A DNA stretch of 64,000 nt from Azohydromonas caseinilytica. GTDB lineage: Bacteria; Pseudomonadota; Gammaproteobacteria; Burkholderiales; Burkholderiaceae_C. The notes under the pieces are model-generated. The model was not told the origin of the DNA. It searched no databases and saw only the letters and a list, made by a program, of their open reading frames with translations. Both the position numbers and the translations under genes were made by a program. The stretch's first letter is position 1; each line of letters begins with the position of its first letter. This document shows positions 3,070-8,382 of this stretch, one piece after another. The stretch covers positions 248,001 to 312,000 of the forward strand of contig NZ_JABBFW010000003.1 in the NCBI RefSeq assembly GCF_012927045.1, written 5' to 3'.

Positions 3070-3252
3070 CCACCTCGTCCGCCGCGTTCGCGTGGGTTCT
3101 ATATTTCCTTGAACCGATGCTCTCGCGAGCAAGGGCCTGGAAAATTGCTGGATGGGCGCGATCGTCTCGCGTCAGACGAACCCGAAGTCCTGCTGACCGG
3201 ACCCACCTGAATCCCCTGGGTTCAGGAATGCGGCCCACGGCTCGCGGTGGAC
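3070..3252 (+). ncRNA. ssrS: 6S RNA
   Basis: 6S RNA mimics an open promoter and sequesters sigma-70 RNA polymerase. The ends pair: CCACC near 3070 with GGTGG at 3246-3250, and GTGGGTTC (about 3100) with GGACCCAC (about 3207). The 3' side of the central bubble carries the diagnostic hairpin CCTGAA-(9 nt)-TTCAGG, following ACCCA, as in the E. coli 6S segment ACCUUGAACC...GGUUCAAGG. The 5' side has a TTCGCGTGGG block like the E. coli UUCGCAAGCGGG block. A TAAAAT box at 3064-3069 is a plausible -10. Position directly after zapA is the conserved location. Both ends are approximate (within about 10 nt). Confidence 0.85.
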
Positions 3253-3367
3253 ACCCCTTCTTCTCTCCTCACACGGGTTCAGCCCTTGCGGCAGCTGGTG
3301 CGGTTCCGGCCAGTGCAGCGCCTGCTTGCGCGTTGCCGCGGCCAAGCCCGTTGGTTTCCTCTGCACC

Positions 3368-5491: not shown

Positions 5492-6817
5492 TCAGTCGAA
5501 GAGCTGCTGCGCGCTGCGCTCGTAGTCGCTGGTGAGCTCCTCGAAGCGGGCCAGCAGCGCCTCGGCCGCAAGCGCCAGCTGGCGGCGTCCGGTCGGGTGC
5601 CCGGCCTCGCGCACGCCCTGCTGCATGCGCAGCCACTCGCGCGCGGCGGCATCCAGCGCGATGCGGATGGCCGGCGAGCTCAGCGGCAGCTGCTGCAGCC
5701 GCTGCAGCGCCTGGTCGAACTCGCGCGCCGTGGCCGCGGCCTGCGACAGCGCCTGCGCGCCTTCGGATGTGTCCAGCAGCGCCCCCATCAGCACCTGCTT
5801 GAGCAGGCGCTGGCCCAGCATGCGCTGGCGCCCGGCCAGGTTCACCGCGGACAGGGTCTGCAGCGCGCTGTTGGCTTCCAGCGCGCGCGTGAGCCGTTCG
5901 GCCGCCCCGAGCAGCGCCTCGGCCGCGGTGTCGAGCGCACCCAGGTCGGGGAGCTGCGGCGCGGCATCGAGTGAGCGCTCCAGCAGAGTCCAGGCCGACT
6001 GCAGCGGCTGCAGCAGGTCGCCCAGCGTGGCCTGCGACAGCGTGCGGTCCAGGTGCTCCAGGTTGCGCTGCGCCTGCTGGCGCGCGGCGGCCTGGGCCGC
6101 GGCGGCTTCGAAATCGGGCGCGGGCGCCAGCCGCAGCGCCTGCAGCGCCACCAGGCGCTGCGACAGCATGCGCAGCTGCCCGGCACGATTGATGGCCTCG
6201 GCATCGCGCGCCGCGTCGATGAGATGCTGCGACAGCCGCCCGACGCGCAGCTTGCCCTGCATGGCCGCGCCGCGCAGGCGGCGGAAGGCCTCGTCCTCCG
6301 ACAGCCCGTGCGAGCGCATCAGGATGCCCTTGGCCCGGTCCACCAGCTTGCGCTCCTCCAGCCGCTGCTGCGCCTCGTCGCGCTCGCCGCGCAGGCGCTG
6401 CTCATGCTCGAAGCGCGTGCGCGCGAGCTGCAGCAGCGCGCGCAGCCGCGTCGGCGCGTAGCCGTGCACCACCCAGCCCGCCACGCCCAGCGCCAGCGCG
6501 CGCTGCGCGCCCTCCACGCTGGCATCGGCGGTGAACACCAGCACCGGCATGGGCTGCGTGCGCGCCAGCAGCTCCAGGGCCTCGAACAAGCCGCCTTGCG
6601 CCGGCTGCGGCTCCCAGCACACGACCACGTCCGGTGCACAACGCAGGGCCTGCTGCACCAGCTTGTCGCACTCGCAGGCACCAAGGACGTGAATGCCGGC
6701 GGCCTGGAGCTCTTCGGACAGCGGCGGCGCGGAGGTGCCGGGGGCGCAGACGACGAGGGCGGAAGTCATGGAGCGGGCCGGCGCAGCGGCCGGGCGGCTA
6801 GAGGAGGAAGACAGCAT
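5492..6817 (-). CDS. Nitrate-responsive ANTAR antiterminator: pseudo-receiver, ANTAR and tandem PilJ/NarX-like sensor motifs
   Basis: 441 residues from ATG 6817, which has a GGAG 10 nt upstream; ATG 6769 (425 residues) is an alternative. Numbering from 6769: a receiver-like domain (1-120) with PDVVVCWEP where the phospho-Asp should be and His instead of the conserved Lys, so not a normal phosphoacceptor. Next is an ANTAR RNA-binding domain (138-188, ERKLVDRAKGILM...GLSEDEAFRRLR). Then come two PilJ-type helical units, each starting with a P-box-like motif: INRAGQLRMLSQRL (193-206) and VNLAGRQRMLGQRL (309-322). These resemble the nitrate-binding P-box of NarX/NarQ. It is divergent from narK, whose leader carries ANTAR-type hairpins. 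I infer that nitrate or nitrite binding drives antitermination. Confidence 0.85.
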   Translation of the reverse strand: MLSSSSSRPAAAPARSMTSALVVCAPGTSAPPLSEELQAAGIHVLGACECDKLVQQALRCAPDVVVCWEPQPAQGGLFEALELLARTQPMPVLVFTADASVEGAQRALALGVAGWVVHGYAPTRLRALLQLARTRFEHEQRLRGERDEAQQRLEERKLVDRAKGILMRSHGLSEDEAFRRLRGAAMQGKLRVGRLSQHLIDAARDAEAINRAGQLRMLSQRLVALQALRLAPAPDFEAAAAQAAARQQAQRNLEHLDRTLSQATLGDLLQPLQSAWTLLERSLDAAPQLPDLGALDTAAEALLGAAERLTRALEANSALQTLSAVNLAGRQRMLGQRLLKQVLMGALLDTSEGAQALSQAAATAREFDQALQRLQQLPLSSPAIRIALDAAAREWLRMQQGVREAGHPTGRRQLALAAEALLARFEELTSDYERSAQQLFD

Positions 6818-6884: not shown

Positions 6885-6901
6885 TTGGCACGGATGGTGC
6901 A
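6885..6901 (+). promoter_or_regulatory. Sigma-54 (RpoN) promoter for narK
   Basis: TTGGCACGGATGGTGCA matches YTGGCACG-N4-TTGCW with one mismatch. The GG (6887-6888) and GC (6899-6900) doublets have the required 10-nt spacing. The predicted start is near 6911, at the 5' edge of the first leader hairpin, giving an untranslated leader of about 197 nt. A sigma-54 promoter fits NtrC-type control of nitrate assimilation. No clear NtrC site was identified upstream. Confidence 0.72.
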
Positions 6902-6910
6902 GAAAGGCCG

Positions 6911-6978
6911 CCGGGCGCACCGCTGCGCCCGGACCGCCGGCCCCGCACGCCCGGTCCTGGCCACAGCGTCGTGACCAG
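6911..6978 (+). promoter_or_regulatory. Tandem hexaloop stem-loops, ANTAR-type RNA target
   Basis: Hairpin 1 (6911-6932): CCGGGCGC / GCGCCCGG, perfect 8-bp stem, loop ACCGCT at 6919-6924. Hairpin 2 (6957-6978): CTGGCCAC / GTGACCAG, 8 positions with one C-A mismatch, loop AGCGTC at 6965-6970. Both hexaloops have A at position 1 and G at position 4, the known signature of RNAs bound by ANTAR proteins. They lie in the narK leader, facing the divergent ANTAR gene. An alternative pairing GGACCG (6931-6936) / CGGTCC (6952-6957) would compete with both hairpins and could form part of the switch. Confidence 0.7.
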
Positions 6979-6996
6979 CATGTGCCTCCGTTGCCC

Positions 6997-7013
6997 GCGC
7001 CCGCCGCGGGCGC
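6997..7013 (+). promoter_or_regulatory. GC-rich hairpin in narK leader, candidate attenuator
   Basis: GCGCCC-GCCGC-GGGCGC forms a very stable stem 19 nt after ANTAR hairpin 2 and before the ribosome-binding sites. No U-run follows, so it is not a textbook intrinsic terminator. It could pause polymerase or fold with flanking CCAG/CTGG segments to mask the GGAG at 7030-7033. Confidence 0.45.
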
Positions 7014-7040
7014 CCAGCAGTACCCCCCTGGAGAAGCCAC

Positions 7041-7094
7041 ATGAGACCGCTGTCGTCATCTGCCTTCACGTCCTCCCGCCTCACGCGCCGCTGA
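7041..7094 (+). CDS. Possible 17-residue leader peptide upstream of narK
   Basis: ATG at 7041 with a GGAG Shine-Dalgarno at 7030-7033 (7-nt spacer) opens a frame encoding M-R-P-L-S-S-S-A-F-T-S-S-R-L-T-R-R and stopping at 7092-7094. The narK ATG is 13 nt downstream in another frame and has no good ribosome-binding site of its own. Translation of this small frame may feed narK by reinitiation. It might instead be chance; only the well-placed ribosome-binding site supports it. Confidence 0.4.
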   Translation: MRPLSSSAFTSSRLTRR

Positions 7095-7107
7095 GCGCCT
7101 CGCCACG

Positions 7108-8382
7108 ATGTCGAGCTTCAAGACCTTTGCCCGCGCCGGCCACTGGCCCACGCTGGCCGCCTCCTTCCTCTACTTCGACTTCTGCTTCGCGGTCTGGGTG
7201 CTCAACGGCGCCATGGGCCCGTTCATCAGCGAGGCCTACGGCCTGTCGGCCGCGCAGAAGGGCTTCATGGTGTCGGTGCCGATCCTGGCCGGCGCGCTGA
7301 TGCGCTTCCCGCTGGGCGTGCTGGCCCAGTACATCGGCCGCAAGAACGCCGCCATGGTCGAGATGACGCTGATCATCGCGGCGCTGCTGTTCGGTTTCGT
7401 GTTCGTGGACAGCTACGACGGCGTGCTGGCCATGGGCGTGCTGCTGGGCATCGCCGGCGCGAGCTTCGGCGTGGCGCTGAGCCTGGGCAGCGGCTGGTTC
7501 CCGCCGCAGTACAAGGGCCTGGCCATGGGCATTGCCGGCGCGGGCAACTCCGGCACCGTGCTGGCCGTGCTGTTCGCCCCGCCGCTGGCCACGGCCTACG
7601 GCTGGCAGACGGTGTACGGCCTGGCCGCGGCCACCATGCTGCTGCCGCTGGCGGTGATGTGGTTCGCCGCCAAGGAGCCGCCGGACCGCGAGCACCAGAG
7701 CTTCCGCGAGCACATCAGCTGCCTGTTCGAGAAGGACGGCTGGGCCTTCAGCCTGATCTACGTCGTCACCTTCGGCGGCTTCATCGGCCTGGCCAGCTTC
7801 CTGCCCACCTACTTCCACGACCAGTTCAAGGTCACCAAGGTCGAGGCCGGCCAGCTCACCATGCTGGCCACGCTCATGGGCTCGGCGGTGCGCGTGCTCG
7901 GCGGCTGGATCTCCGACCGCATCGGCGGCGTCAACACGCTCTCCGGCGTGCTGCTGCTGGTGGCGGCCACGCTGGCGGCCTGCGGCTTCGCCGGCACCTC
8001 GCTGGTGGGCACCACGCTGCTGTTCATGCTCTGTTTCGCCGCTCTGGGCGCGGGCAACGGCGCCCTGTTCCAGCTCGTGCCGCTGCGCTGGCCGCTGGCC
8101 ACCGCGGTGGCGGGCTCGATGATCGGCGAGGTCGGCGCCCTGGGCGGCGGCTTCCTGCCCAACGCCATGGGCCTGTCCAAGGAGTTCACCGGCAGCTACC
8201 TCGGCGGCTTCCTGGCCTTCACGGCCCTGGCGCTGGTGATGCTGGCGATGCTGCGCGTGGTGCAGATCCGCTGGACCCGCACCTGGGCCGAGAAGGGCGG
8301 CCGTGCCCGCGCCACCGCGACGCCGGCGGCCCAGCCCGCCGCCCCGCGCGTGACCCGCGTCGGCGCCCGCCGCCGCGCCTGA
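7108..8382 (+). CDS. narK: NarK/NasA-type nitrate (nitrite) transporter, MFS
   Basis: 424 residues with about 12 membrane segments. Imports nitrate across the inner membrane for assimilation. The two nitrate-signature regions are visible: GIAGAGNSGT near residues 142-151 and GEVGALGGGFLPNAMG near 339-354, together with the RFPLGVLAQYIGRKNA MFS loop. The C-terminus is a basic Ala/Pro tail. ATG 7108 is the earliest start in frame and lacks a clear Shine-Dalgarno. Expression is probably controlled by the sigma-54 promoter and ANTAR-type leader described above. It is separated from nirB by a gene on the opposite strand. Confidence 0.92.
   Translation: MSSFKTFARAGHWPTLAASFLYFDFCFAVWVLNGAMGPFISEAYGLSAAQKGFMVSVPILAGALMRFPLGVLAQYIGRKNAAMVEMTLIIAALLFGFVFVDSYDGVLAMGVLLGIAGASFGVALSLGSGWFPPQYKGLAMGIAGAGNSGTVLAVLFAPPLATAYGWQTVYGLAAATMLLPLAVMWFAAKEPPDREHQSFREHISCLFEKDGWAFSLIYVVTFGGFIGLASFLPTYFHDQFKVTKVEAGQLTMLATLMGSAVRVLGGWISDRIGGVNTLSGVLLLVAATLAACGFAGTSLVGTTLLFMLCFAALGAGNGALFQLVPLRWPLATAVAGSMIGEVGALGGGFLPNAMGLSKEFTGSYLGGFLAFTALALVMLAMLRVVQIRWTRTWAEKGGRARATATPAAQPAAPRVTRVGARRRA

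Follow-up and report, generated by a model that had tools for sequence, protein, structure and literature searches.

The intergenic region 6886-7107, which separates a regulator gene (5492-6769, minus strand) from the divergently transcribed narK (7108-8382, plus strand), raises the question of how narK is controlled in the window, i.e. the whole stretch of 64,000 nucleotides that was analysed, part of a genome of 6.65 Mb. The initial annotation proposed a sigma-54 promoter followed by an ANTAR-type RNA switch, on which nitrogen limitation and nitrate would act as two inputs. The promoter, the hexaloops, the divergent regulator and the covariation held up, and we have little doubt that narK has a leader dedicated to ANTAR binding, with Ntr and nitrate as its inputs. 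The idea of two inputs is sound, but its logic is already known from Klebsiella: the nitrate-assimilation genes of Klebsiella oxytoca are under Ntr plus nitrate/NasR control (PMC5424462). What goes beyond the annotation is a middle hairpin, an anti-Shine-Dalgarno element, a small ORF and a sensor of the PilJ instead of the NIT type. The features of the locus are:

5492-6769, minus strand: regulator with a pseudo-receiver, an ANTAR and two PilJ domains (Pfam, profiles, structure model)
6886-6901, plus strand: sigma-54-type promoter TGGCACGGATGGTGCA, GG-N10-GC (pattern and relatives)
6911-6932, plus strand: hairpin P1, CCGGGCGC[ACCGCT]GCGCCCGG, hexaloop 6919-6924 (covariation, relatives)
6931-6957, plus strand: middle hairpin Pm, GGACCG 6931-6936 with CGGTCC 6952-6957 (swapped-arm test)
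6957-6978, plus strand: hairpin P2, CTGGCCAC[AGCGTC]GTGACCAG, hexaloop 6965-6970 (covariation)
6979-6989, plus strand: anti-Shine-Dalgarno/anti-AUG element CATGTGCCTCC, directly after P2 (complementarity, relatives); its first part is CATGTGCC, 6979-6986
about 6990-7018, plus strand: GC hairpin, which the proposed sequestering helix would enclose and which no U-run follows (folding)
7030-7043, plus strand: Shine-Dalgarno sequence GGAG (7030-7033) and AUG (7041-7043) (predicted pairing)
7041-7094, plus strand: small upstream ORF of 17 codons, MRPLSSSAFTSSRLTRR and stop (reading frame, relatives)
7108-8382, plus strand: narK, NarK-family nitrate/nitrite MFS transporter (TIGR00886, PF07690)

The locus and its promoter

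The narK product matches TIGR00886 at 1.1e-71, yet below the family cut-off, and a clear Shine-Dalgarno sequence of its own was not seen by eye. The gene is followed by a kinase/phosphatase gene on the minus strand, nirB, a small gene that by eye is Rieske-like, and a gene resembling molybdopterin nitrate reductases. Elsewhere in the window, a 6S RNA gene lies at 3073-3257 on the plus strand (Rfam RF00013, 56.5 bits).

Relatives were compared in a set of 42 leaders, from which the duplicates L034, L036 and L048 were left out, as was L033 (a congener, not a duplicate), while loci of the fusion regulator with no divergent target in reach were dropped (L015, L037, L042, L046 and L058). Azohydromonas aeria is probably a congener, judging from L132 (genome G168, same genus) and L033 (A. 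aeria), which have the same regulator/narK match. All p-values given here flatter the result, because the sequences are related.

The pattern TGGCAC-N6-TGCA has a single match in the 64 kb, at 6886-6901 (expected 0.26; at least one match in 24 of 100 shuffles). When the best-scoring sigma-54 site was taken in each leader, it reached 9-11 of 11 in 42/42 leaders, the window included. The predicted transcript start, 12 bases past the -12 C (6900), falls at about 6912, in agreement with the annotation, which had placed it at the first hairpin (P1 begins at 6911). The P1-Pm-P2 leader RNA would thus start right where transcription from a sigma-54 promoter begins, and would therefore be made when nitrogen is short.

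NtrC enhancer sites upstream of narK are only weak candidates. Scored against a 12-letter NtrC consensus, NtrC-like sequences occur at 6654 (10/12 letters) and 6677 (9/12), both inside the regulator gene, and six sites in the whole window score at least as high as the former and 81 at least as high as the latter. This pair (6654-6693) is 23 bp apart and about 210-230 bp upstream of the promoter, and among 15 relatives compared, most have similar-scoring sites between about -165 and -260. At 6/11 nirB loci (L012, L013, L039, L041, L044 and L045), a second sigma-54-like site (9-10 of 11) was observed between the element and nirB, so that the ANTAR element may there be bypassed or reside on a separate short transcript.

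Three hairpins at the start of the leader

The paired hexaloop hairpins of the annotation are present, i.e. ACCGCT at 6919-6924 and AGCGTC at 6965-6970, both with A at position 1 and G at position 4, and each loop is closed by a C:G pair (C6918-G6925 and C6964-G6971), which is the preference of NasR in SELEX. In the set A2 of 20 relatives, the loops carry A or G at position 1 and G at position 4, it being understood that these relatives were picked partly by this very loop pattern (L009, with a loop distance of 38, was left out of A2, and L114 was dropped as chance); the P1 closing pair is U-G in 13/20 of them. Across the larger set, a hairpin with an R1/G4 hexaloop stands at the predicted start of 39/42 leaders against 1.3 expected with the same bases shuffled, and in 1.7% of 120 other windows further down. 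This rule fails in L009, L044 and L089, of which L009 and L044 have imperfect hairpins by eye. The loop-to-loop distance is 44-46 nt among 20 leaders selected for a good P2.

Covariation is the evidence that carries the element. The 40 elements were reduced to 32 representatives by dropping eight near-copies (L135 was re-read by hand). When pairing between a hairpin's own arms was compared with that between swapped arms, P1 and P2 each gave p 1e-5 in 15 representatives, which is the floor of the test, and the RNAalifold consensus on the MAFFT alignment had changes on both sides in 8/12 predicted pairs. Absence of covariation in relatives had been named in advance as grounds for abandoning the annotation; the hairpins passed. 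Folding 6911-7107 by itself, as the annotation had suggested, gave no unusual stability (z -0.78), and folding energy alone is uninformative in such GC-rich DNA: the minimum-energy fold is without P1 and P2, the centroid retains P1, and the hairpins are instead recovered by comparison with relatives. In unconstrained ensembles, P2 has a probability of 0.00-0.02 once the RNA ends at 7060 or later. P2 therefore appears to form poorly unaided in the longer RNA, as would suit a protein-dependent hairpin. A search of the site against Rfam gave no match to an ANTAR family.

The annotation's two tandem stem-loops are both there, but they are not simply tandem, as a third hairpin, Pm, lies between them, its outer letters overlapping the outer pairs of P1 and P2. 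Pm is not shown in the RNAalifold consensus, because gap placement in the alignment shifts its register; it was therefore tested without alignment, by own- versus swapped-arm pairing, with p 2e-5 in 15 representatives and p 5e-5, the floor, in 32. Its predicted probability in the window is 0.75-0.99 at each 3' end tried. The linker between the 8-bp stems is 24 nt long and folded as a hairpin. This exceeds the 5-12 nt of EutV leaders, where antitermination is impaired by a linker of 14 nt and lost when 20 nt are added (PMC3369931, PMC8934654), but falls within the 2-25 nt allowed by a later search criterion for ANTAR targets. Folding of the linker would account for the tolerance of 24 nt.

A pseudoknot between the Pm loop and the sequence after P2 (GCAC/GTGC, ATAC/GTAT, GTAC/GTAC) is striking by eye, but the test gave p 0.015 for one search range, 0.15 after this was widened and 0.17 when the common pair was left out, and the pairing clearly fails in L142, L144 and L136. 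As a separate observation, the pairing of linker loops with the P2 3' arm is weaker within a species than between species (z -4.0, 32 representatives), as if misfolding were selected against.

A covariance model of the element, R1, has one clear match in the genome (62.3 bits; the next, at 31.9 bits, lies inside a 788-codon open frame), and matches 36/299 genomes of the family in 18/141 genera. In a wider sample of the order it was found in 2/250 genomes, namely that of the window and another from the same family. Among the best 30 of the 36 family matches, 15 stand before narK and 13 before nirB, and the remaining two before a narK remnant beside nirB (L148) and another MFS gene (L139). Twelve of these 30 loci trained the model and 18 did not, and those 18 follow the same rule of gene context. 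The element at these 30 loci thus stands before nitrate-assimilation genes, with another transporter as the one exception. At L148, narK and the kinase gene are apparently fragments between the regulator and nirB, with the RNA element kept. Taken together, the leader element is real and has the defining features of an ANTAR target.

The ribosome site and the output of the leader

The only good ribosome site of the leader, GGAG...CACATG (7030-7043), is the complement of CATGTGCCTCC, the element at the foot of P2. Our preferred reading, with somewhat less than even confidence, is that the leader controls initiation of translation by masking this site rather than by an intrinsic terminator. The annotation had left the choice between terminator and ribosome-site masking open; the evidence leans, not strongly, towards the latter.

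Across the group, the case for sequestration is good. CTCC occurs within 18 nt after P2 in 12/31 representatives (L037 was too short to be counted) against 8.9% of 372 other windows (p 7e-6), is absent in the other 19/31, and co-occurs with a recognisable ribosome site (Fisher p 0.028). In 19 representatives with such a site, the predicted pairing between it and the 18 nt that follow P2 averaged 0.58 against 0.27 for shuffled sequence (Wilcoxon p 8e-4; singly below 0.05 in 7/19), and 0.50 against 0.22 with 60 nt more of downstream RNA (p 0.006; singly 4/19). The bare duplex of element and site has z -4.36 relative to shuffled elements, while the own- versus swapped-arm test of this helix was not significant (p 0.20).

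Within the genus of the window, the case is only fair. Pairing with 6979-6989 is predicted at 0.87-1.00 for RNA ending at 7045-7070, and for RNA ending at 7080-7160 at 0.01-0.19 when free and 0.27-0.85 with P1 and P2 enforced. Sequestration in this genus would have to act during transcription. The ribosome site itself stays paired at all 3' ends tried (GGAG 0.76-0.97, AUG 0.97-1.00), at ends 7080-7160 mostly with bases other than 6979-6989. Among congeners, the helix between element and site has a probability of 0.00 in four settings in L127 and L128 and of 0.51-0.96 in L132, compared with 0.02-0.95 in the window, and in L129 and L130, a pair from one other genus, it reaches at most 0.07. The sequestering helix is compatible with all three hairpins P1, Pm and P2, and these alone therefore do not open it.

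The AUG of the site opens the 17-codon ORF, whose stop lies 13 nt before narK. ORFs at the same place are found in three congeners (L127, L128 and L132) and in two members of one other genus (L129 and L130). In some relatives, the site facing the element is the gene's own (e.g. L131, L135, L138, L139, L140 and L141); in others it opens a small ORF with its stop near the gene start, four of them as ATGA overlaps. The stop lies within -20 to +10 of the gene start in 6/11 cases against 2.65 expected (p 0.006, for a range chosen post hoc). Several nirB leaders have a layout different from this sequestering arrangement.

The best characterised relatives act by antitermination, and to our knowledge the ANTAR systems characterised so far in proteobacteria work as terminator switches. 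An attenuation of transcription, at the GC hairpin or at some other hairpin resembling a terminator, that the regulator relieves as in EutV and NasR would accordingly follow the mechanism known for the family (PMC3369931, PMC8934654), and the window does contain a stable GC hairpin. As the annotation had seen, however, this hairpin (about 6990-7018) has no U-run: no hairpin of the window's leader has a U-rich tail under either a TTTT rule or a looser one, and the GC hairpin does not overlap P2, i.e. the terminator overlapping P2 that marks antiterminator leaders is absent from the window. With P2 status assigned by hand and not by the automated R1/G4 rule, hairpins followed by TTTT were found in 0/13 narK leaders with P2 against 9/18 without it (Fisher p 0.0036), and, after adding nirB loci, in 1/20 against 10/21. 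Under the looser rule, a U-tailed hairpin is present in 15/18 P1-only leaders and still in 4/14 narK leaders bearing P2 (L004, L005, L006 and L038), where the tail is weak. For the window, we consider attenuation rather unlikely.

Two observations on leaders of relatives stand apart from this comparison. In L022, L023 and L060, narK is preceded by a single hairpin (loop AATGGC) together with a clear terminator that has a U-tail, and in the P1-only leaders L016, L020, L049, L050, L052, L053, L055, L057 and L059 the 3' arm of P1 could, by eye, alternatively pair with a downstream GGTG (CACCGCTTTGGTG and variants).

Another route to altered transcription would be through Rho: a closed ribosome site would leave a long untranslated GC-rich leader exposed to Rho, and the regulator, by restoring translation, would restore transcription. 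This possibility, which we regard as unlikely, shares its parts with translational control, notably a ribosome site predicted to be paired whatever the 3' end and the coupling of a small ORF to the gene, and it would show as a change in mRNA level; the data do not separate it from purely translational control.

The regulator, its rivals and related systems

The genome has two ANTAR genes, one of which is divergent from the narK leader. That this neighbour is an ANTAR gene, as annotated, is confirmed by a PF03861 match (3.3e-17) in 5492-6769. Its frame is open further upstream and 6817 was used in the searches, whereas relatives conserve the ATG at 6769 as the start; several of them begin with MTS. 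The Pfam scan further gave PF13675 at 1.6e-19 in two stretches and PF00072 below the cut-off, and profile matches comprised Rv1626 (1s8n), EutV (6wsh/6ww6), NasR (4akk, ANTAR part) and McpN (6gcv, second PilJ). The structure model (pLDDT 90.4, pTM 0.74) has RNA-bound EutV (6ww6) as its best fold match. The 50 fold matches listed cover receiver and ANTAR, with no PilJ domain among them, so the PilJ assignment comes from sequence matches. A NIT domain was absent from the Pfam scan, and the NasR structure was matched only in or near the ANTAR part. Where Rv1626 has a D, the regulator has a W, and the pseudo-receiver thus lacks the phospho-acceptor.

Each PilJ domain of the regulator has 11/12 letters of the N-box [IVL][ND]xAGxQRML[ST]Q, one short of a full match, which is complete in the second PilJ of L005. 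The McpN study (PMC6381276) describes the PilJ domain of McpN as binding nitrate through this N-box, and PilJ domains without a conserved N-box as not binding nitrate. Nitrate sensing by the regulator is likely.

The second ANTAR gene (L150:6145-6795) lies about 13 kb before the window and about 19 kb from the narK leader; its product is NasT-like and stands alone, with D where the fusion protein has W. It is followed by a sigma-54-like site (L150:6885) and the hexaloops AAAGGC and AAGGCC, 35 nt apart, and this candidate target (within L150:6145-7000) precedes a nitrate ABC transporter. Differing in loops and spacing, the two circuits may be insulated from each other. That the narK leader is bound by the NasT-like protein, rather than by the divergent fusion protein, seems quite unlikely: it is encoded about 19 kb away, and 6 of the best 30 loci have the element before nirB and lack a fusion gene within the 1.5-kb flank, but it has a candidate target of its own, and in the other 24 loci the element has the fusion gene as its divergent neighbour. 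The six nirB elements concerned (L133, L142, L143, L145, L146 and L147) have three hairpins; with no fusion regulator beside them, another ANTAR protein may use the element there. A more elaborate scheme, which we hold to be somewhat improbable, has the three-hairpin scaffold at the 5' end holding the loops at a fixed distance while the element at the foot of P2 toggles between a pseudoknot with the Pm loop (ON) and the ribosome-site helix (OFF), with one genome carrying two insulated ANTAR circuits that are distinguished by loop letters and spacing.

Under the preferred reading, i.e. masking of the ribosome site, the element after P2 would pair with GGAG...AUG (7030-7043) in the absence of nitrate, once these are transcribed, and keep the site shut. 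With nitrate, the divergent pseudo-receiver-ANTAR-PilJ-PilJ protein would bind and stabilise the P1 and P2 loops, keeping the element at the foot of P2 out of the helix and thereby freeing the site; ribosomes would translate the 17-codon ORF and start narK by coupling, and their passage may also keep Rho off the leader. Comparison of sequences supports the promoter, P1, Pm, P2, the anti-Shine-Dalgarno enrichment and the domain make-up of the regulator; nitrate as the ligand, binding by the divergent protein, the direction of the switch and translation over termination are inferred. That the bound regulator instead represses narK is very unlikely, as the translational repression by ANTAR proteins shown in mycobacteria and proposed for other actinobacteria concerns, in the examples of PMC8164766, ribosome sites inside the paired hairpins, while the site lies about 50 nt after P2 here, and nitrate regulators of this type activate (PMC5424462).

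Among the closest known systems, nasF/NasR of K. oxytoca likewise combines Ntr control with a nitrate-responsive one-component ANTAR protein on a two-hairpin leader, which precedes nitrate-assimilation genes. NasR, however, is a NIT-ANTAR protein, which senses through NIT and has a terminator as output, whereas the window has a PilJ pair behind a pseudo-receiver, a linker that is itself a hairpin, and more probably the ribosome site as output. NasS-NasT of Paracoccus, Azotobacter and Pseudomonas resembles it in having a receiver-ANTAR protein, nitrate-assimilation targets and leader hairpins, but NasT works with a separate sensor, NasS, while the fusion protein carries its own sensor domains. 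A nitrate-requiring step at translation is part of nas control in Paracoccus (PMC5424462). With EutV and the eut leaders of Enterococcus, the locus shares the paired A1/G4 hexaloops and the receiver-ANTAR fold; the terminator of the eut leaders overlaps P2 and lengthening of their short linkers impairs control, in contrast to the arrangement in the window. Mycobacterial and actinobacterial ANTAR RNAs are similar in that ribosome-site control is shown or proposed there, but there the site is in the hairpins and binding represses, while the window has a separate downstream helix. The system thus has neither the terminator that marks antiterminator leaders nor the NIT domain that NasR uses, and searches of a library of open-access papers gave no paper on PilJ-ANTAR regulators or a three-hairpin ANTAR RNA.

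For the family, this means that leaders with P1 and P2 and without clear terminators exist beside P1-only leaders with terminators under one type of regulator, and, with both kinds in one bacterial family, the choice between translation and termination is directly testable. The locus also suggests that a long ANTAR linker can be tolerated by folding, and its regulator is a further compact protein in which a likely nitrate sensor is joined to an RNA-binding part. Finally, the genome may hold two orthogonal ANTAR pairs, which would be useful for RNA engineering.
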